From positions 1-37,925 of the forward strand of contig CAIJED010000267.1 in assembly GCA_903819595.1 (NCBI GenBank): a DNA stretch of 37,925 nucleotides, read 5' to 3'. Below, one piece after another: positions 4,983-22,662 of this stretch (position 1 is the first letter of the stretch; the number at the start of each line of letters is the position of its first letter). Source of the DNA: an uncultured Methanomicrobiales archaeon. GTDB lineage: Archaea; Halobacteriota; Methanomicrobia; Methanomicrobiales; Methanospirillaceae. Under the pieces are notes generated by a model. The model had not been told where the DNA came from and made no database searches. It saw nothing but the letters and a program-made list of their open reading frames with translations. The position numbers and the translations under genes were made by a program.

Positions 4983-5021
4983 TTCATAAAACCCCGGCAA
5001 CACCCACAAAAATAAGTTATA

Positions 5022-5094
5022 TGAGGCCACTGCGATTCGAACGCAGGTCAGAAGACCCCCAGTCTCCTAGGATTCCAGGCTACCCTATGGCCCC
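5022..5094 (-). tRNA. tRNA-Pro (anticodon GGG)
   Basis: Read on the minus strand, 73 bases fold as a complete cloverleaf. The acceptor stem is GGGGCCA/TGGCCTC with one G-U pair, plus discriminator A73. The D-arm has G18G19 and the T13-T22 mismatch usual in archaeal tRNA-Pro. The anticodon stem GGAGA/TCTTC closes the seven-base loop CTGGGGG, giving anticodon GGG. The T-arm is CTGCG-TTCGAAT-CGCAG. No CCA is encoded, so it must be added enzymatically, and no intron is present. Confidence 0.93.
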
Positions 5095-5211
5095 GCACTC
5101 ATACTCATTCGTCCATATCCCATATCTACCTTATTGTCCCAATGAAGACCCATATCACCTGTTTCAGATGATACGCAGCAGTGCCGTTGACACCCTCACA
5201 TAAATGCAGGA

Positions 5212-5406
5212 TCAGTCATCGATTTTTTCAACGGTTACGCGCACCCGGTCTCCAGCCCTGATCCTGTGACCCTTCAGCACGTCAATATTGAACCAGAGGC
5301 ATGCAGGGTCGGTAGAGGTAGTATCCTGGGACATCAGGCAGTCTTTATACTCATTGATATCAGCGATAAACTCAATAGTTGATTCCAGTTCAGCAACCTT
5401 AGTCAT
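5212..5406 (-). CDS. Small conserved-looking hypothetical protein
   Basis: A 64-residue acidic protein that I do not recognise. The C-terminal GHRIRAGDRVRVTVEKIDD looks like the closing strands of a small beta-barrel, and the N-terminal half is probably mixed alpha/beta. It starts 29 bases after the stop of the DUF7123 gene on the same strand and may be cotranscribed with it. A TAATAAAT element at that junction could also drive it separately with little or no leader. The tRNA-Pro follows 117 bases further on. Function unknown. Confidence 0.6.
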   Translation of the reverse strand: MTKVAELESTIEFIADINEYKDCLMSQDTTSTDPACLWFNIDVLKGHRIRAGDRVRVTVEKIDD

Positions 5407-5435
5407 GGCCTAGAAAAATAGTGTATAATGATTTA

Positions 5436-5690
5436 TTAGTATGCCGACCTTGGCTTAACCATCCAGGTCGTGCTGTTCGAATAACTCCAACGAATGATTG
5501 ATAACTCCTGACATATCACGGAGAGGATTGCCATATTTGTGCCGACCTCCTTTGACGAGAGTCCGAGCTCTTTTGCAATATATTTTGACTTAAAGTAGTG
5601 CTTGCCTTTGGTGACACCCGAGTTAAGGCATGCAATAATCCGCGCCTGGGACTCGTTGTATGTATCGGCGATGCGTCTTGTTGAAGACAT
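5436..5690 (-). CDS. DUF7123 family winged-helix protein
   Basis: An 84-residue protein matching the small archaeal family now called DUF7123. It has an N-terminal helix (SQARIIACLN), then YFKSKYIAKELGLSSKEVG, an evident helix-turn-helix, then TNMAILSVICQ and a closing wing with SYSNSTTW. The fold suggests DNA binding and a role as a small transcription regulator or chromatin-associated factor; no target is known. The start is well determined: ATG at 5690 is preceded at six-base spacing by a near-perfect GGAGGTGAG. Family assignment rests on memory of the conserved YFKSKYIAKELGLS and STTW patterns. Confidence 0.75.
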   Translation of the reverse strand: MSSTRRIADTYNESQARIIACLNSGVTKGKHYFKSKYIAKELGLSSKEVGTNMAILSVICQELSIIRWSYSNSTTWMVKPRSAY

Positions 5691-5696
5691 ATATCT

Positions 5697-5743
5697 CTCA
5701 CCTCCAGAGATGTTGAGCTATAACTTCATTTCATATATATAAA
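5697..5743 (-). promoter_or_regulatory. Promoter and ribosome-binding site of the DUF7123 gene
   Basis: On the minus strand TTTATATA (5736-5743) lies about 49 bases before the ATG. This predicts a start site near 5713 and a leader of about 22 bases, which contains the strong Shine-Dalgarno GGAGGTGAG (5697-5705). Confidence 0.55.
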
Positions 5744-6089
5744 TAACTATTTTTCTTCCCATAATTCTGAGTCATATATGAACAGCAGTTCGGCAAAGAA
5801 CGAATAATTGAGACTTTTGCACAGGATCATCAGGGAGCGTGAGTGTAACAAGAACCAGCGTGAATCCATTACGTCCTGTCAGACGAAGAAAGAAAAGCCG
5901 TTCATCTGTAACGACCCTGAAAGGCCTCTCTGACAATTGGCATGGGTAAACACATTGGATAGGATATTGTAAAAAGCCGTGAAACTCTGTTGTTAGCGTT
6001 TGTATCGACAAAAGAGATCTTCATGAGAAAAAGGTACGGGATTGAAATGAGTGAGTGCCTTCTCTCCTGTTATATACCACAGGGATCAA
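5744..6089. other. Intergenic region without a supported gene
   Basis: About 350 bases upstream of the DUF7123 promoter and downstream of the DHH gene. A minus-strand frame at 5772-6011 would need a TTG start, has no ribosome-binding site and resembles nothing known. The plus-strand frame entering from 5990 is antisense to the DHH gene. I see no RNA fold or repeat. Confidence 0.4.
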
Positions 6090-6111
6090 TGAAAAACCAA
6101 AAAAAGGAAAA
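6090..6111 (-). terminator. Terminator of the five-gene operon
   Basis: On the minus strand, directly after the DHH stop, T-runs of six, seven and five bases occur in close succession, a typical strong archaeal oligo-T terminator. Confidence 0.55.
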
Positions 6112-6124
6112 AACGCCGGGTTAC

Positions 6125-7966
6125 TTACGCACCGGTTGGAGCATTGGAGATCTTTTCCACCAGTTGCTCGAGTACCTCGTTCCGCATGCCTTCGACGAAC
6201 TTGATGCTTCCGACGACAAGGTGCCCACCTCCACTGATCCCCCCGCCTTTCAGCTCGTCTCTCAGTTCACGGACCATTTTCGGGATATTCATCATCACAC
6301 CCCTTGAACGCAGGACTGCAAAGTCGGGACCAAAACCAATCGTAACTACCGGACTCCCGACATGCTGCCTGCATAAGCGGTCATGTACTTCGCCTGAGGT
6401 CTTCCCGGGGGGTGGGAAGGTGAACTTATGGGCATGGATCTCAACATCGAGGAGAAACAGGAGGGCACCATTTTTAAGGGCCCGCTCTTTCACATGGGGC
6501 ATACTTGCATTCATCTGGTCCTCGATCATTAAATTCGCCCCTTCAACCAGCCTGGCAATAAGCTTCCCGTGTCGTTCGGGATTGTTCGTCAGATTCAGGA
6601 TATCCTTGATCAATTCACGCCCGTCATTAAATCGTAACCAGAACTGCTCATAATCAAGGGCAAGGGCAATATTTTTGCATTCGTCCTCGCTGTATGACTC
6701 CTTAACCAGGTCAAGGAACAGTGCACGTTCCGGTGCCTCGCTCCGGTCACCAACACCAGCGATCGCAGGGATATGCCGGATATTAGGTTCAACCGCGGGA
6801 TTGATCAGCCTGGCCACCTCGGTACCGAGCATCCCTGCTGTGATCCCGAAATCGCCACCGACATGATAGGGGTTCACATGGCCGATAAGGAACTGGTCAA
6901 CGATTGCGTCCGGGTGGTGGTGGTCTATTACGACAATCGGCAGCTCATATACCTGTGCCATCCGGTATGCAGGCAGGTCTTCTTCAGTTGAGCCGTTATC
7001 AGTCAGAAGGATCAGGGGCATCTTCTGCCCGAAACGGGCATGATCCTTCAGTGAGAAATCGAGGTCACGCGTGATATCCTCAATTTCATAGAACGGAGCT
7101 TTTGAAGGAGCCCGTTTGAAGAGGAAGTAATCAGAATCGTAATCTCCACCTGACTCCCGCAACAGCGCTGTTACTGCCTGTTCAATTGCTACGGCCGAGC
7201 AGATCCCATCCGCATCCGCATGGTGACGGAGAATAATTGGTTGAGAAGTGAAGACCGCCCTCCTGATGATTTTTGCAATCTTCCGCATCTCAGGCCTGAG
7301 TTTTTCCAGGACCGGGCTCGGGACAAGGAGCGGGATGTCGGGGGGCTCTGAACGCAGGTCCAGTGCCTTCTCGATCCGTTCCCTTACTTCCTGGGCATCG
7401 GGACCGGTAAGCACCGACAGGGAGTCAACCTCGATCTGCAACTGATTATTCCGCTGCATTACCTCACCGACGATACGGACCAGATCACCAAGTTCTGCCT
7501 CCGGGTAGGCACGGACTCCGGCCTCCACAAATGCCGCTGCATTTTCTGTCCCTGACTCGTCAACAATGGTGAATATCGTCGGTCCGCTTGTCTGCTTGAC
7601 CTGGGCAATCTCACCTTCTATCCGGACAGTCCGCCCGATTTTTTTGCCCAGTTCTGCAAGGAGAACCGCAGTACTCTTTTTCTCGATAGCACGAACCTGG
7701 TACACCGGGATGACCATCTCTTCAAGGTCTATATTCCCATTGCTCCGGATCGCCCTGACGTGGACCAGTACCGTTTCACGCTCCTTATGCTCGGTTTTAA
7801 CATTGCTCTTGTGTATAAGCCCTTTTACCCGCTCATTCAACTGGACAAACGTCCCAAACGTGGCGAATCCCTGCACACGTCCTGCATACGTCTTCCCTTC
7901 TTCCACGTCACCCAGGTCACAAGACGCACCAAGGCGGTATACAATTATTTCACTGTTATTTTCCAT
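6125..7966 (-). CDS. RecJ-like DHH phosphoesterase with S1 and OB-fold domains
   Basis: A 613-residue nucleic-acid phosphoesterase of the archaeal RecJ-like group, expected to degrade single-stranded DNA or RNA 5'-ends in replication, repair or RNA turnover. An S1-type RNA-binding domain is at about 18-75 (GKTYAGRVQGFATFGTFVQL), then an OB-fold at about 105-185 (VRIEGEIAQVKQTSGPTIFT), then the DHH catalytic domain from about 235 with HHADADG, LTDNGSTEED and VVIDHHHPD, whose aspartates bind the two metals. A DHHA1-like domain closes the protein, with GGGISGGGHLVVGS. Related proteins of COG1107 carry an N-terminal DnaJ-type zinc finger, which is absent here; the upstream gap leaves no room for it. 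ATG at 7966 has a GAGG eleven bases upstream. It is the last gene of the operon. Confidence 0.88.
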   Translation of the reverse strand: MENNSEIIVYRLGASCDLGDVEEGKTYAGRVQGFATFGTFVQLNERVKGLIHKSNVKTEHKERETVLVHVRAIRSNGNIDLEEMVIPVYQVRAIEKKSTAVLLAELGKKIGRTVRIEGEIAQVKQTSGPTIFTIVDESGTENAAAFVEAGVRAYPEAELGDLVRIVGEVMQRNNQLQIEVDSLSVLTGPDAQEVRERIEKALDLRSEPPDIPLLVPSPVLEKLRPEMRKIAKIIRRAVFTSQPIILRHHADADGICSAVAIEQAVTALLRESGGDYDSDYFLFKRAPSKAPFYEIEDITRDLDFSLKDHARFGQKMPLILLTDNGSTEEDLPAYRMAQVYELPIVVIDHHHPDAIVDQFLIGHVNPYHVGGDFGITAGMLGTEVARLINPAVEPNIRHIPAIAGVGDRSEAPERALFLDLVKESYSEDECKNIALALDYEQFWLRFNDGRELIKDILNLTNNPERHGKLIARLVEGANLMIEDQMNASMPHVKERALKNGALLFLLDVEIHAHKFTFPPPGKTSGEVHDRLCRQHVGSPVVTIGFGPDFAVLRSRGVMMNIPKMVRELRDELKGGGISGGGHLVVGSIKFVEGMRNEVLEQLVEKISNAPTGA

Positions 7967-15034: not shown

Positions 15035-15176
15035 CTCAACCGCTCCTTGGTTAGGTATTCTCGGCTCCTGTTTATGATGTTATTTGATTGGACGGAACTG
15101 AATAACACGGGTGATAAAGCATAATCTGCCATGCCTCCAATTGCGACGAGTGGATGTAAATGGGAACCTGCTAACA

Positions 15177-15218
15177 GAAAAAATAAAAATTATCTGATTC
15201 ACGGAGATTTGAAAAAAA
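15177..15218 (-). terminator. T-tracts after the zinc-ribbon gene
   Basis: On the minus strand, oligo-T runs at about 15211-15217 and 15177-15192 follow the stop of the zinc-ribbon gene and precede the acyl-CoA synthetase leader. Together they form a likely terminator separating the two genes. Confidence 0.4.
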
Positions 15219-15254
15219 TTGACATGTTCACATCCTGACAGTTCCAGGCACCCG

Positions 15255-15617
15255 TTATCCGGATGAGCCCCAGGACTCGTCAATGTACTCCAGGTTGAAC
15301 CTGTAGAGGTGGGTAAATCCACATTCCCTGCATTGGACAGTGAAATTCCTACATCCTATCGTTACATCATGAGGACCGGTTACCTTACATTGTCTGCATA
15401 ATGCGTTGGCCGTCAGGTTCCAGATGTCATAACATCCTGGCTTGATATAGTCCCCTTTTTTACTGACCTCTTCAACAATCGGAATATATGACCTTGTCGC
15501 CCTGCAGTTGTCACAAACAACCTGTGCACCATTCGGGACTGCAGTAATGACCTGGTCAACGTCCTCCCTGCAGTTGAAGCAGGTGGTCCGGTGACGCGTC
15601 GTGATGAAATCGTCCAT
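15255..15617 (-). CDS. Four-CxxC zinc-ribbon protein
   Basis: A 120-residue protein with four CxxC knuckles: CFNC (Cys13, Cys16), CDNC near residue 35, CRQC near 74 and CREC near 96. They are spaced as two zinc ribbons, the first closing by about residue 38 and the second spanning about 74-99. The remainder is beta-rich, with VTGPHDVTIGCRNFTVQC and an acidic C terminus. It may bind nucleic acid or protein, as archaeal zinc ribbons often do. I do not recognise a named family. It is transcribed alone on the minus strand, with oligo-T tracts after the stop. ATG at 15617 gives the natural N terminus just ahead of the first knuckle. Confidence 0.7.
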   Translation of the reverse strand: MDDFITTRHRTTCFNCREDVDQVITAVPNGAQVVCDNCRATRSYIPIVEEVSKKGDYIKPGCYDIWNLTANALCRQCKVTGPHDVTIGCRNFTVQCRECGFTHLYRFNLEYIDESWGSSG

Positions 15618-16037
15618 GTATCATACTCACAAGCGGGAGCTGATAAAGTATTGTGATATTGAAAGAACCAACAGGCCTCTGGTAGAACTACACATGCTGA
15701 ACCCACAGCCGGATCAATCCCCCGATTCTTTGTGATCAGGAATAATTGACCCGCAGGTCATGTCAGGAAAGGAAAAAAATAGAAATTCAGCGATACGTCA
15801 GGGCAACAGATGATACACAGGAATACCGGGACCGGGTCGTTCCACCGCGATAATGAAGATGATGATGCCATATGTTTTGCCTCCTCCCAAGGGTACATTC
15901 GAATGGACCATTTCGCCATGATGTGAACTGATGAGGCCCGGAAATCAGAAACCTGCGCTACGCATGATGTAAATACTTTAAAATTTGCAGCAAGGGGGGA
16001 TTACATAATTAGTATCCAAAAATAGGTGTACTAAGTC
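15618..16037. other. Intergenic region without a supported gene
   Basis: About 420 bases with stops in all frames at short intervals. I see no tRNA fold, long repeat or convincing small reading frame. TACTTTAAAATT at about 15972-15983 resembles a TATA box but no gene starts at the expected distance. Confidence 0.4.
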
Positions 16038-16244
16038 TCAGCCACCTGGAAGGGTGATATCGTACATACCAACAATGTCACCGGTTGGAAGTATGATGTG
16101 GGTCCCTAACGGCACTGTGACCGCGATTACCATACGTTGGTTGATCCCGGCGAAAGTTGGCGCATTGGTTAGCCTCGGACGACCCGGAGGTTGACCTGAC
16201 ATTCCCCCCTTAAAAATATCGTTGAACCAGACGGTCCCACTCAT
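16038..16244 (-). CDS. Possible small hypothetical protein ending in Gly-Gly
   Basis: A 68-residue frame on the minus strand with balanced composition and a probable beta-hairpin half (RMVIAVTVPLGTHIILPTGD), ending in DITLPGG at the stop. A minus-strand TTTATGTA at 16269-16276 lies about 28 bases before the ATG, so a leaderless transcript is plausible; no Shine-Dalgarno sequence is present. It resembles no family I know. The terminal Gly-Gly recalls ubiquitin-like SAMP proteins, but the rest does not look like a beta-grasp fold and the match may be chance. It lies divergently from the REC-histidine kinase gene. It could be a chance frame. Confidence 0.4.
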   Translation of the reverse strand: MSGTVWFNDIFKGGMSGQPPGRPRLTNAPTFAGINQRMVIAVTVPLGTHIILPTGDIVGMYDITLPGG

Positions 16245-16317
16245 TCTGAGGTTAGGAGGTTGTTACGATACATAAATTGGATCACAGAGGATCTGAACCG
16301 ATTGCAAGACCATACGA

Positions 16318-16360
16318 ATTTAAACCCCTCCAGACAGAATGAAACATGATACCATGGTAT
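16318..16360 (+). promoter_or_regulatory. TATA box with a palindrome at the predicted start site
   Basis: ATTTAAAC (16318-16325) is a candidate TATA box for the kinase gene, predicting transcription from about 16347. At that point lies ATACCATGGTAT (16349-16360), a perfect 12-bp palindrome, an arrangement seen where archaeal repressors block initiation. The predicted leader is about 75 bases. The elements are seen; function is inferred. Confidence 0.35.
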
Positions 16361-16421
16361 TAATGGCAAAATGTCATAAACCGATAATCCGCACCAGAAG
16401 AGAGGGGCGTGAAGCTCTCCA

Positions 16422-17510
16422 ATGAGCAAAATACCAGTCCTTCTCATCGATGACGATGAGGATTTACTCCAGATAGGAAAGGTGTTTCTCGAAGATGACG
16501 GGCGGATCACCGTGAAGACAGTAGGTTCCGCCGAGGAGGCCCTCAATCTGATCGCCATTCACCAATTCGACGTAATCGTCTGTGATTACCGGATGCCCCC
16601 GGGCATGGACAGTAACGGTCTACTAAAAGCCATGAAAGAACAGGGACTCGATGTACCCCTCATCGTGTTCTCGGGATTTGCACGCGAAGATTGTGCGACT
16701 GAAGCCATAAAAAACGGAGCCGCATTTTATCTGCAGAAATCTATCCAGCCCGATGTTCAGTATACGGAAATGAAGAACATGATTCTGCACCTCTCTATGC
16801 TCAGGCACGTACAGCAGGCACTTTTTGAGACCAGAAAAGAATTCGAGTTATTTTCCTACTCAGTCTCCCATGATTTGAGGGCTCCCTTGCGAATCATTGA
16901 CGGCTATTGCAAGATCTTATCAGACAAATATGATGCAAACGTACCTTCAGATTCTCAACAGTATATCGGCCGGATCCGTGCCGCGACAGGAAGAATGGAT
17001 GCATATTTTGAAGACCTGCTCCAGCTCTCCAGGGCAGGGCGCCTTCCGATGAAAACCGAACAGGTGAACCTGTCATCAATGGTAACCTCCATACTGGGTG
17101 AACTATCGCACCCTGCACAGGGACCTCATTTTATGCAGGAGATTGAGAGAGATGTCATTGTCCAGGGAGATCGGGCACTTCTCGAACGCGCACTACAGCA
17201 GATCCTTGAAAATTCCTGTAAATATTCAAAGAACAGGCAACAGATAAGGATCGATTTCGGTACGATACAAATCGATGGCAGAACAGTCTATTTTGTCCGG
17301 GACAATGGTGAGGGGTTCGATACAACGAATGCAAAAGATTTATTCAAACCGTTTCATCGGTTCCATCCCGAATCGCAGTTCCCCGGAACCGGCATCGGAC
17401 TTGCAATTGTCCAAAAAATCATCAGCAGGCATGAAGGATCCCTTCGGCTCGAGAGTTCGGTCGATGGTGGTACAACCATTTTTTTCACTCTCATCAATGG
17501 AGAAAACTAG
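16422..17510 (+). CDS. Hybrid REC-histidine kinase, soluble
   Basis: A 362-residue cytoplasmic signalling protein. The receiver domain (about 4-125) has the acidic pocket Asp10-Asp12 (LLIDDDED), phosphoacceptor Asp55 (VIVCDYRMPP) and Lys106 in FYLQKS. A coiled linker leads to the HisKA dimerisation domain, with phosphorylatable His150 in SVSHDLRAPLR. The ATPase domain follows: N box QILENSCKYS, G1 box DNGEGFD, F box FKPFHRFH and G2 box GTGIGLAIVQ. No transmembrane segment or PAS sensor exists, so input probably arrives through the receiver as part of a phosphorelay. It is followed 117 bases later by the chemoreceptor gene, which has its own TATA box, so a functional link is suggested by proximity only. 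Confidence 0.9.
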   Translation: MSKIPVLLIDDDEDLLQIGKVFLEDDGRITVKTVGSAEEALNLIAIHQFDVIVCDYRMPPGMDSNGLLKAMKEQGLDVPLIVFSGFAREDCATEAIKNGAAFYLQKSIQPDVQYTEMKNMILHLSMLRHVQQALFETRKEFELFSYSVSHDLRAPLRIIDGYCKILSDKYDANVPSDSQQYIGRIRAATGRMDAYFEDLLQLSRAGRLPMKTEQVNLSSMVTSILGELSHPAQGPHFMQEIERDVIVQGDRALLERALQQILENSCKYSKNRQQIRIDFGTIQIDGRTVYFVRDNGEGFDTTNAKDLFKPFHRFHPESQFPGTGIGLAIVQKIISRHEGSLRLESSVDGGTTIFFTLINGEN

Positions 17511-17627: not shown

Positions 17628-17732
17628 ATGAAAGAAGATATCAGAGTATTATCGGTCGAGGACTCACAGGATGATGCTGTCTTCGCGATAGTCGAGCTCG
17701 AAAAAGGCGGCCTTAAAGTTCATCAGTGAAGG
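17628..17732 (+). pseudogene. N-terminal REC fragment cut off by an in-frame TGA
   Basis: From ATG 17628 the frame reads 33 codons with the start of a receiver domain (VLSVEDSQDD, the acidic pocket) and meets TGA at 17727-17729. It then continues without another stop, in the same frame, into [12 protein letters not shown] of the large downstream frame. Related receivers usually have a residue such as Trp, Tyr or Arg just before RVDTA, so a one-base change from TGG to TGA is the simplest origin. The strong ribosome-binding site belongs to this fragment. Whether the lesion is real, an error, or bypassed by restart at GTG 17733 is not decidable from sequence. Confidence 0.75.
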
Positions 17733-20084
17733 GTGGATACTGCCAGCGATATGAAAGAAGCCTTACTTAAAGAAACCTGGGATATTATCCTGTACGATTA
17801 TTCAATCCCCGGGTTCGGGGCGATTCCCGCCCTCGCACTCCTGAAAGAAATGCAGATCGAACTCCCCGTCATTATCATATCAGGGGTTATCGGCGAAGAT
17901 ACCGCGGTGGAGGCGATGCGATCAGGTGCCCGTGATTTTATTGTCAAAGGCAAGTACGCACGTCTCCTCCCTGCAGTCAGGAGGGAGGTTGAGGAGTATA
18001 TCCAGCTCAAGGCACGGGAGGCAGAAGTAAAGAAACAGAAAGCTGAAGCAGTAAAGCAGCGCCAGCTCGCCTTTACCATGATCATGCAGAATCCCCAGCC
18101 GCTGCTCATCATAGACACAAAATTCGATATAAAACTTGCAAATGAAGCATTTCTGAGTTTAAGCGGATATTCTGAAGTACAATTGCAGAAAATGAATATC
18201 AGGGAGTTCAAAATCTTAAAAAAGAGCGGGCACAACATCAAGGAAGCCTTAGCGACTAAAAAAAAAGGGGTGACCGGTGAAGTCACCGTGGAATTCCCGA
18301 AAGCCACTCACTCGCTGGAGCAGCACACGATCCCGCTGCTCGACAAGGAGGGCGGGATCGTGAGCATCATGACTGTGTACAATGATCTCACTGGGAAGTT
18401 GATCGAAGAAGCAAAGCATGAGGAACTCGCCAACTACATTACTGCTTATCTTTCATCCATGGCAGATAATTTAACCAAACTGTCCACAGCAAACCTAGAC
18501 TTCAACCTCGCAATTGCCCCGGCGAGCAAAACGACAGAGGAAGCCCGACAATGGTTCACTGGCATCAACAAAAACCTTGCAGAAGTAAAAGCTGCACTTG
18601 ACCTTCTGGTTTCTGATGCAAATACGCTTACAAAAACCGCAGTAGAAGGGAAACTCGACACCCGGGCAGACGCAACGAAACACCAGGGGGATTACCGCAA
18701 AATCATCGAGGGGGTGAATGCCACCCTCGATGCCGTTATCGGGCCCCTTAACGTTGCCGCCGAGCACGTCGACCGCATCAGCAAGGGAGAGATCCCGGTG
18801 AAGATCACGGACAAGTACAACGGAGATTTCAACGAGATTAAGAATACTCTGAATACATGTATCGATAACATCAATTCCCTTGTTGCAGACGCAAACATGC
18901 TTGCAAAGGCGGCTGTTGAAGGCAAACTCAAAGTCCGGGCAGATGCAACGAAACACCAGGGGGATTACCGAAAAATTGTTGAAGGGTTCAATTCGTCCCT
19001 GGATTATGTGATCAACCCGGTCAATGAAGCGATGCGCATCGCAAACCATTTTTCAAATTGCGATTTTTCAGCACGTGTTGATGAAAAACTTCACCTGGAA
19101 GGTGACTTCATCAAGTTCAAAGACGCACTGAACAGCATCGGCATCGAGATCTCCAAGGCAGTGAACATTATCAATCAGCAGGTTATGGAACTTGCTTCGA
19201 GCGCAGAGGAGGCAAATGCCAGTATTGAAGAAATATCATCAGGTGCGGAACAGATCGCAAAGAATGCCGCAGGAGTAAGTACAAATACCGAACATGGAAA
19301 TGAAGGGATTTCCCAGGTATTACGGGCGATGGAAGATCTCAATCAGACGGTGACAGATGTTGCCCAGAAAGCTGAAAGGGTATCACAACTGACCGAGGAT
19401 GCCAACCAGTTGAGCGTGAAGGGTACCGGGCTTGCAGAGCAGGCAGAACTGGGAATGCGAAGTATCACAACCTCTTCAAACGAGGTCGATAAGATTATTG
19501 TTGATATCAAGGCCGAGATGGACAAGATCGGAAAAATCGTAGGATTGATCAGCGACCTTACCAACCAGACCAATCTCCTTGCCCTCAACGCTGCAATCGA
19601 AGCGGCCCGTGCTGGAGAAGCAGGCAGGGGTTTTGCAGTTGTGGCCTCTGAAGTAAAACCACTAGCCCAGGAGTCCCGTGCATCTGCAGAGAAAATCGCT
19701 GATATGATAGGTACTCTCCAAAAGAAATCACTGGCTGCCGGTGAAGCAATCGCATCATCGAGCCGTGAAGTGAAAGCCGGAAGCGAGGCGCTCAGCCAGA
19801 CACTCCATTCTTTCAAGGATATCGCAAAGTCGATCGAGGATATCAGCAGGAACGTAGTGGAAGTGGCAAGTGTGAGCGAAGAACAAGCTGCAACAGTGGA
19901 GGAAGTCACCGCAAGTGTTACCGAAGTGCATGGAATGGTACAAGCAACCGCGAAAGATGCGATGGATGCGGCTGCCGCTTCAGAAGAAGCATCTGCATCC
20001 ATTGACCAGATCACGAGGGTCATTGGCAGTGTGAACGCGATCGTGGACAATGTCTCTAAAGAGATGGCAAAGTTCAAGGTATGA
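17733..20084 (+). CDS. Soluble methyl-accepting chemotaxis protein (REC-PAS-HAMP-MCP), main part
   Basis: A 783-residue open frame encoding most of a cytoplasmic chemoreceptor; the first 35 codons lie upstream of an in-frame TGA. The rest of the receiver domain (about 1-95) retains phosphoacceptor-like [11 protein letters not shown] and Lys in [12 protein letters not shown] domain follows (about 110-230: [21 protein letters not shown]). HAMP-like units occupy about 260-480, including two near-identical 91-residue repeats with [13 protein letters not shown]. The signalling domain has the conserved tip [20 protein letters not shown] and [13 protein letters not shown]. No transmembrane helix is present, so it senses internal signals and would bind CheW/CheA. 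GTG 17733 is the only nearby restart and has a poor ribosome-binding site. cheW follows in 13 bases. Confidence 0.85.
18672..18970 (+). repeat. Tandem HAMP-unit duplication in the receptor gene
   Basis: A 26-bp sequence at 18672-18697 recurs exactly at 18945-18970, a 273-bp (91-codon) period. The flanking codons diverge but encode similar residues. This marks an internal duplication of a HAMP-like signalling unit, with the identical block covering ATKHQGDYR. Confidence 0.85.
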
Positions 20085-20097
20085 TGAGGGATTTCAT

Positions 20098-20735
20098 ATG
20101 ACTGATAAGCAGATTATCCCGGTTCCTTCCGGCGGGAGTGCTGCGTTTCACTCTGCACATGTAAATCCCCAGGTGGAACCAACACCCGGAGCACACCATG
20201 CAACTGGTGGTGCTGGTGCTCAAAAATTTAGTGATAATATTCAGGTAGTTGAATTTCTTCTTGAAGATGAACATTTTGCTATTGACCTATTCGAAGTTCG
20301 GGAAGTCGTGGAATATACCCGAATCACCCACCTCCCTGACACCCCCCCTCATATCAGGGGGATCATCGATTTGAGGGGTGAGATTACCACAATCATCGAC
20401 CCAAAAAAACTGATCCATATTCATGGTGAAAAAAAACAGACGAGGTCTCTTCCCGTATCATCGTCCTCGACGATCTGATAACCAGATCGAAAATCAGGAT
20501 CATGATCGATGATGTCCTTTCTGTCTCCACGTACTCCAGGAAAGAAGTGGATACAACGGCAGCCAACATAAACCGGGAACAAAACAATATTATTGGTATT
20601 ATCCGGAAGAAAATCCGGATTAAAGACAAGGATGTCAATGAATTAATTATCTGGATGGATATTCAGCGACTGCTGACTGAGGCTGATCAGGTAATTGTGA
20701 AGGAAAATTATCGCGGGAACACGGAAAATTATTAA
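20098..20735 (+). pseudogene. cheW: cheW split by a one-base frameshift
   Basis: Two frames together make one CheW adaptor, the protein linking receptors to the kinase CheA. The first part, ATG 20098 to a stop at 20478, has a low-complexity N-terminal extension and the SH3-like first half (VVEFLLEDEHFAIDLFEVRE, RGIIDLRGEITTIID). The second half (RIIVLDDLITRSKIRIMIDD, VLSVSTYSRKEVDT) lies in the -1 frame and ends at 20735. The switch point is the A8 run at 20429-20436: adding one A gives a continuous 212-residue CheW (GEKKTDEVSSRIIVLDDL). Explanations are a recent deletion, a base-calling error, or -1 slippage on the A-run. ATG at 20098 has ATGAGGGA upstream, 13 bases after the receptor stop. 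Confidence 0.85.
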
Positions 20736-20884: not shown

Positions 20885-21625
20885 CTAAATTTCCCCCATC
20901 TCCCAAGGGTGATTGAGGATTGCCAGTACATCCCGACGTTGTTTCACCATTGAATACAATTGCACACAGAGTTCACTAAATGCGGTCATGAATTCCAGAG
21001 CCTTGACCCTTTTTAATGCGGGTATATCAGGATATAACGGATTTTTCAGAAAACTGCCATTCGTCATCTCATAATACGCAGCACCACGGAATTTTACATA
21101 TTCGCGATAATCACTCTGGAACCGGGAAGATACAAGGTTTGCCATCTGCAGAACCGAATCGTTCGTCGGGTTAATCGTAACATGCCCAAACCCGGGGGGA
21201 ACCATCACGAGGTCACCTGCAAACGCATCAACAACAATAACCTGCGAGAAGTCATGGGCCTGGAGAAGGTAGTGAGCATGCCCTTTCATTACTTCATAGA
21301 CCTCCGGATACCCGTATCCTTCCGGATTTTCCGGGTGATAATGCCCCAGAGTCTTGACATATTCACCACAGAGGTCGCGGGGCGGAATAACGGTAATATC
21401 ATACCTGATTCCCTGTTCCCGAAGCCATTCGCGATCAGATCCCGGCATCGCAACATCCCGGAACATATAGTACATATCTCCATCGCACCGGCAATCCGGA
21501 TCGGCAAAGACAGGTTGTAATTCGTCTGCCACCCTGATATCAGGTTCCGGGAGCGGTCCGATCCAATGAGGCCCTAAATCAGTAATATCCTGAAACAGAT
21601 GGGCATGATTCACCATGCGGTTCAT
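20885..21625 (-). CDS. pgiA: Cupin-type glucose-6-phosphate isomerase
   Basis: A 246-residue archaeal cupin phosphoglucose isomerase, interconverting glucose-6-phosphate and fructose-6-phosphate. The metal site appears as GHYHPENPEGYGYPEVYEV, where His95, His97 and Glu108 align with the ligands of the Pyrococcus enzyme, and His148 in PGFGHVTINP is the fourth. TPTNDS-type and ADLVSS-type cupin strands are visible (NPTNDSVLQMANLVSS). The N-terminal 60 and C-terminal 40 residues extend beyond the smallest Pyrococcus form. Its ATG overlaps the phosphofructokinase stop as ATGA, so the two are translated together and form a G6P-F6P-FBP step pair. Confidence 0.92.
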   Translation of the reverse strand: MNRMVNHAHLFQDITDLGPHWIGPLPEPDIRVADELQPVFADPDCRCDGDMYYMFRDVAMPGSDREWLREQGIRYDITVIPPRDLCGEYVKTLGHYHPENPEGYGYPEVYEVMKGHAHYLLQAHDFSQVIVVDAFAGDLVMVPPGFGHVTINPTNDSVLQMANLVSSRFQSDYREYVKFRGAAYYEMTNGSFLKNPLYPDIPALKRVKALEFMTAFSELCVQLYSMVKQRRDVLAILNHPWEMGEI

Positions 21626-22662
21626 CGCCTCCCGCCGATTACGGTCTTTGCGAGTTCATAAAGCTCAAGATCCACGGTTTTTAACCGGAACACGGCCTCT
21701 TCAAGCGGTACTGATGTGATCTGGTTGCCGTGGATGGCCGCCATCTGACCGAACTTCCCGGCATCAATAAGCTGTACCGCTGCCACACCCAGGCGGGTAG
21801 CAAGAACCCGGTCAAATGCAGTTGGAGACCCCCCACGCTGAATATGGCCGAGGATGGTGACACGTGTCTCAATACCGAGCCTTTTCTCCAACTCTTTTCC
21901 AAGGAGAAGCCCTACACCCACAAATTTTTCGTTGCCACATTCGTCCCGGATATCTTCAGGTACCGGGGGTAGGCCGATATCCTCCCGCCTGGCCCCTTCC
22001 GCGATAACAACAATAGAGAATTTTTTCCCTGAATCATACCGTGCCTGGAGATTTTTACAAACCGAATCCATGGTAAAGCGCACTTCCGGGATCAGGATTT
22101 CATCGGCCCCTCCGGCAAGTCCGGCAGTCAGTGCAATCCAACCCACGTTCCGTCCCATCACTTCTACCACAATAATCCGGTGATGGGATTCGGCAGTCGT
22201 GTGAAGGCGGTCAATTGCCTCAGTTACCGTAGAAACTGCGGTATCAAACCCGAATGTCACATCGGTACCTGATATATCATTATCAATGGTCTTAGGAACA
22301 CCAACCAGCGGTATCCCCTGTTTTGAGACATCGCGTGCCGCAGACAGGGTGCCGTCACCTCCAATCACAACGAGAGCATGAATTCCGTACTTTTTCATGT
22401 TGTATTGGATCTTCTGGAAATCTGATCTTTTTTCCAGGGGGTTTGTACGGGATGTACCCAGGATCGTCCCTCCCCGTGGAAGGATCCCGGAAACAGAAAA
22501 ATCCGTGAGTGGTTCTACATCTCCATCAATCAGACCCCGCCAGCCATTGCGGATGCCAAGTGTTTCGTAACCATATTTTATACCGGACCGGACGACCGCC
22601 CGGATCACCGCATTCAGCCCTGGGCAATCCCCCCCACCCGTCAGGACACCAATAGTTTTCAT
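21622..22662 (-). CDS. pfkA: PFKA-family 6-phosphofructokinase
   Basis: A 346-residue phosphofructokinase of the bacterial PFKA type, phosphorylating fructose-6-phosphate. It shows GVLTGGGDCPGLNAVIR, the donor-site motif GGDGTLSAA (Gly104), catalytic PKTIDNDI with Lys124 and Asp127, and FGFDTA, VEVMGRNVGW and GHIQRGG. Gly104 normally marks ATP use, while Lys124 is typical of pyrophosphate enzymes. The Gly104/Lys124 pair is known from group III PFKs, so donor identity is uncertain although ATP is favoured. Most characterised methanogen PFKs are unrelated ADP-dependent enzymes, so transfer from bacteria is likely. ATG at 22662 has GGAGGGTGAGG five bases upstream. Confidence 0.93.
   Translation of the reverse strand: MKTIGVLTGGGDCPGLNAVIRAVVRSGIKYGYETLGIRNGWRGLIDGDVEPLTDFSVSGILPRGGTILGTSRTNPLEKRSDFQKIQYNMKKYGIHALVVIGGDGTLSAARDVSKQGIPLVGVPKTIDNDISGTDVTFGFDTAVSTVTEAIDRLHTTAESHHRIIVVEVMGRNVGWIALTAGLAGGADEILIPEVRFTMDSVCKNLQARYDSGKKFSIVVIAEGARREDIGLPPVPEDIRDECGNEKFVGVGLLLGKELEKRLGIETRVTILGHIQRGGSPTAFDRVLATRLGVAAVQLIDAGKFGQMAAIHGNQITSVPLEEAVFRLKTVDLELYELAKTVIGGRR

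Follow-up and report, generated by a model that had tools for sequence, protein, structure and literature searches.

In the archaeon Sulfolobus, the alpha-L-fucosidase gene fucA1 undergoes programmed −1 frameshifting at A-AAA-AAT, an A-rich heptamer that lies in phase, and reading on in the −1 frame gives the full protein; the usual spacing between a slippery site and its stimulatory stem is 5–9 nt (PMC8211752). In the AT-rich endosymbionts Buchnera and Blochmannia, genes frameshifted at an intragenic run are rescued by transcript slippage on long poly(A) (PMC5009743). The GeneTack survey attributes frame changes that occur in a single lineage, and that lack a conserved motif, to indel mutations, pseudogenes or sequencing errors (PMC3711429).

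We compare these systems with a cheW gene whose frame changes at a run of eight A's. It lies in a window of 37,925 nt with ~49% G+C, which makes up the entire contig C267 in the draft genome (G000; 3.15 Mb in 401 contigs) of an uncultured Methanomicrobiales archaeon, a methanogen from a lake. The gene resembles fucA1 in its A-rich heptamer in phase and in the full protein restored by the −1 frame, but it has no stem at 5–9 nt and its tract is not conserved (PMC8211752). It shares with the Buchnera and Blochmannia genes a frameshift at an intragenic A run, but neither the window's base composition nor the genome's size is that of a reduced, AT-rich symbiont, and the adjacent gene is broken too (PMC5009743). 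Like the pseudogenes and frameshifted singletons of duplicated genes classified by GeneTack, it combines a single-lineage frame change without a conserved recoding motif, the truncation of most of a domain and intact homologues nearby; it differs from them in that several paralogues of one cassette have been broken independently within one small genus (PMC3711429). The best reading is an ordinary one: a receptor-CheW cassette that was redundant has recently turned into pseudogenes. A literature search found no published report on this cassette or its decay.

Two interrupted genes in one cassette

The same-genus comparison set comprised four genomes, including the window's own and two others, G002 and G003. 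A scan across named genomes found three loci in two Methanomicrobiales genomes (Lake Pavin; Alinen sediment), both genus mates. The features of the window cassette are collected in Table 1.

Table 1. Features of the receptor-CheW cassette and its upstream neighbour, in window coordinates
Feature	Position	Strand	Basis or detail
Response regulator-histidine kinase gene, intact	16422..17510	+	Pfam Response_reg, HisKA, HATPase_c
Gene for a soluble receptor (response regulator-PAS-HAMP-MCP), with a stop at codon 34	17628..20084	+	Domain matches, sister-copy alignment
In-frame TGA in the MCP gene	17727..17729	+	CGA at the same codon in sister G002 C7, whose protein continues
In-frame A9 run of the MCP gene, with one additional Lys codon relative to sister copies	18258..18266	+	Sister-copy comparison
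cheW 5′ part, frame 0, 126 aa, premature end	20098..20478	+	ATG 20098, TGA 20476-20478
A8 run at which the CheW reading shifts to the −1 frame	20429..20436	+	Codons GAA AAA AAA CAG; sister copies A4-G-A4
cheW 3′ part, −1 frame, ~99 codons and stop	20436..20735	+	TAA 20733-20735

The frame change in cheW is real. The −1 frame is already open upstream of the A8 run and continues to its stop codon, and the two joined halves encode 212 aa that match positions 1–136 of the 138 in the Pfam CheW model (PF01584; 82.6 bits); the frame-0 product alone matches positions 1–68 (62.6 bits). An independent 3-periodic Markov/HMM scan, which had learned from long ORFs on contigs of the compared genomes and was supplied with no CheW model, put the change at 20439/20440. 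The window cheW has no single uninterrupted frame, and the copies on G000 C182, G000 C360, G002 C7 and G003 C47 each have one. Within the window, the same scan detected no further mid-gene frame change despite 33 homopolymer runs of at least 7. Runs of A8/T8 or longer are not rare here (8 per 37,925 bases), and therefore the signal is the frame change and not the A8 run by itself.

The receptor frame starts at ATG 17628 and is closed by a TGA at codon 34, where the window has T and the sister copy C, a lesion of a non-homopolymer kind; a 783-codon frame opens again at GTG 17733. A first-pass annotation of the sequence had described a frame change exactly on the A8 run, halves that join to 212 residues and a chemotaxis gene pair broken among intact neighbors. 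The reading frames, the CheW domain match, the sister's CGA codon and the scan of the window bear out this description.

Several observations describe the setting of the cassette. The receptor's HAMP region contains a 77% identical direct repeat (window 18606-18731 and 18879-19004). A sister receptor on the minus strand of G003 C47 (3178-7877) has a 1567-aa open frame with many tandem HAMP-like units, ~273 bp apart and far more numerous than those of the window receptor. The response regulator-histidine kinase gene is also found 5′ of an MCP gene in G002 C7, a conserved synteny. On the other side, the GPI/phosphofructokinase flank (window 20907-22632) is kept at G002 C334 (14511-16241) without an adjoining receptor-CheW cassette, so that the cassette was either gained in the window's genome or lost in G002. 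Two further stretches of the window, 4987-6140 and 15041-16443, each exceed 1 kb and are scored as non-coding by the HMM.

Sister copies and the origin of the A8 run

The receptor-CheW cassette is multi-copy within the genus, with several copies in each of three same-genus genomes. CheW is intact in four of these copies (G000 C182 and C360, G002 C7 and G003 C47). It is broken or a remnant in the window, in G000 C208, in G002 C400, C119, C87 and C282 and in a second copy on G003 C47, the remnants being those of C87, C282 and the second C47 copy. Downstream of several other receptors (e.g. G000 C258 and G002 C141), no CheW was detectable in the downstream sequence examined. On G002 C7 (1-4182), the order is a receptor 3′ end, cheW, ~1.4 kb of apparently non-coding DNA, a histidine kinase and a receptor 5′ end, which suggests either tandem cassettes or an assembly join.

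The aligned site reads GAAAAGAAAACAGA in G003 C47, G002 C119, G002 C342 and G000 C208, other copies being similar and less A-rich, and it reads GAAAAAAAACAGA in the window. No readable same-genus sister copy has a homopolymer at this position; each has A4-G-A4 or a similar sequence, with at most 4 A's in a row. Among 27 homologues from the wider family, none has a long A run at the site, the longest being 5 A's. Removing the single G between the two A4 blocks yields exactly A8, which would make the run the lesion's product and not its cause. The A8 run is thus probably the scar of a deletion rather than a switch. As an alternative, a synonymous G-to-A change may have made an A9 run that then slipped to A8, but this route takes two steps.

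The remaining broken copies were shifted elsewhere in the gene: G000 C208 at a run that went from C7 to C8, G002 C119 by a +1 change in a C-rich stretch and G002 C400 by a −1 change near codon 160. Since these copies changed frame at different places, a conserved switch or recoding site at the A8 run is unlikely. The same comparison weighs against the first-pass proposal of phase-variable control, by which slippage between A8 and A9 would act as the switch. The joint between the cheW halves does fall exactly on a homopolymer, as such a switch would have it. But the tract is missing from all sister copies and from the 27 homologues, the other copies have their own break sites, the receptor was turned off by a substitution, which cannot switch, and eight A's are short for a contingency tract. 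We consequently give this explanation almost no credence.

The first-pass annotation had also called the run a workable −1 slippery tract. The motif is present, as a heptamer A-AAA-AAA in phase at 20430-20436, but its use finds no support in the comparison. The heptamer is absent here from all relatives compared, the intact copies require no shift and the frame change is not conserved. The sequence downstream of the A8 run folds no more strongly (z = −1.69) than the corresponding region in an intact copy (z = −1.64); in the predicted fold, no stimulatory structure is present 5–9 nt 3′ of the run, and the main stem begins ~20 nt away. Expression could in principle be rescued if RNA polymerase slipped on A8, or the ribosome slipped by −1 on A-AAA-AAA, to produce some full-length CheW, for which Sulfolobus fucA (PMC8211752) and the endosymbiont poly(A) genes (PMC5009743) are precedents. 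Given an unshared heptamer, an ordinary fold with a distant stem and a receptor that carries its own stop codon and would gain nothing from slippage, we consider such rescue very unlikely.

Constraint on the window copy and the case for error

We estimated sequence constraint from pairwise and relative-rate counts. At CheW positions conserved in the outgroup, the window copy has changed 14 of 89 residues, including G56E, L102P and G134R, and the intact same-genus copies have changed 8–9; among the broken copies, the counts are 18/88 (C208), 12/88 (C119) and 9/88 (C400). In the signalling half of the receptor, the window copy carries 13 changes at positions where all nine siblings are identical, including A645T and S678P. 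The other copies carry 0–9, except for C87, whose 13 changes lie mostly in one patch. The CheW amino-acid relative rate is also raised (23 changes in the window versus 6–7, p = 0.002–0.005), although synonymous changes are somewhat up as well and the amino-acid excess is borderline at best (Fisher p = 0.03–0.3).

For the window cheW, we obtained a branch dN/dS of ~0.10, compared to 0.44 in the broken C208 copy, 0.03–0.08 in the intact C7 and C47 copies and 0.09–0.11 in the intact C360 and C182 copies. A ratio of ~0.10 suggests that the gene was under selection through most of its history and that its loss was recent. Combined with the borderline amino-acid excess, it points to one of two situations: either the window cheW lost its function recently, or the deletion is an artefact.

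The second situation is the main rival explanation, in which the cell's cheW is intact and the consensus sequence lost one base at the A run during sequencing or assembly. Homopolymers are classic sites of sequencing error, the genome is a draft in 401 contigs and the overall dN/dS of cheW is still low. An error at the run, however, would leave several observations unexplained: the adjacent receptor is interrupted independently, by a nonsense change and not by a homopolymer indel, conserved positions are substituted in both genes, the window's other genes are free of mid-gene frameshifts in spite of its 33 long runs and the examined block of genes on C208 is complete. We therefore regard an error as unlikely, though it deserves more weight than any other rival. 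The first-pass preference for decay over random error is upheld by the two independent lesions and by the conserved-position substitutions found in both genes.

Probable decay of a redundant cassette beside an intact core operon

Decay of a single cassette has to be distinguished from a lineage-wide loss of chemotaxis as a pathway, of which the two broken genes would be one part. As pathway loss would predict, the window's genome yielded no close match to the archaellum-linked CheA that G003 and G002 carry, but the draft contig that carries the archaellum genes (C357) ends early, just before the place that CheB/CheA occupy in G003. The core operon on contig C11 retains intact genes for CheW, CheR, a second CheW, an MCP, CheA-REC and CheB; ArlI, too, is intact, with 96% identity to its G003 counterpart; and the paralogous CheW genes on C182 and C360 are intact in the same genome. 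Loss of the pathway is accordingly very improbable. The first-pass suggestion of decay is supported for this cassette but not for the pathway as a whole.

We consider it likely, from comparison of the gene sequences, that the window pair is one copy of the multi-copy receptor-CheW cassette turned into a pair of pseudogenes, through birth-and-death decay of a redundant cassette. According to this explanation, two changes broke the pair. A C-to-T change, seen as a difference from the sister copy, put the TGA at receptor codon 34, and cheW, one base short in the sequence, was left with its second half out of frame. The lost base would be the G between the two A4 blocks, with A8 left as its scar. 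The loss may have been tolerated because intact paralogues remain in the genome, and other cassette copies would have decayed independently through other lesions. In a more elaborate and highly doubtful version, the cassette multiplies in the genus, the CheW half is lost repeatedly and the receptor half is often kept, and slippage may still yield small amounts of full-length CheW from the A8 copy; how many functional CheW partners there are would then be adjusted one copy at a time.

A frame change located on a homopolymer can mimic a switch or a slippery site; here, to judge from the sister genes, the homopolymer is probably a result of the deletion itself. Annotators should score such cassette copies as broken. 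The birth and death of receptor-CheW cassettes should be of some use for work on archaeal chemosensory repertoires.
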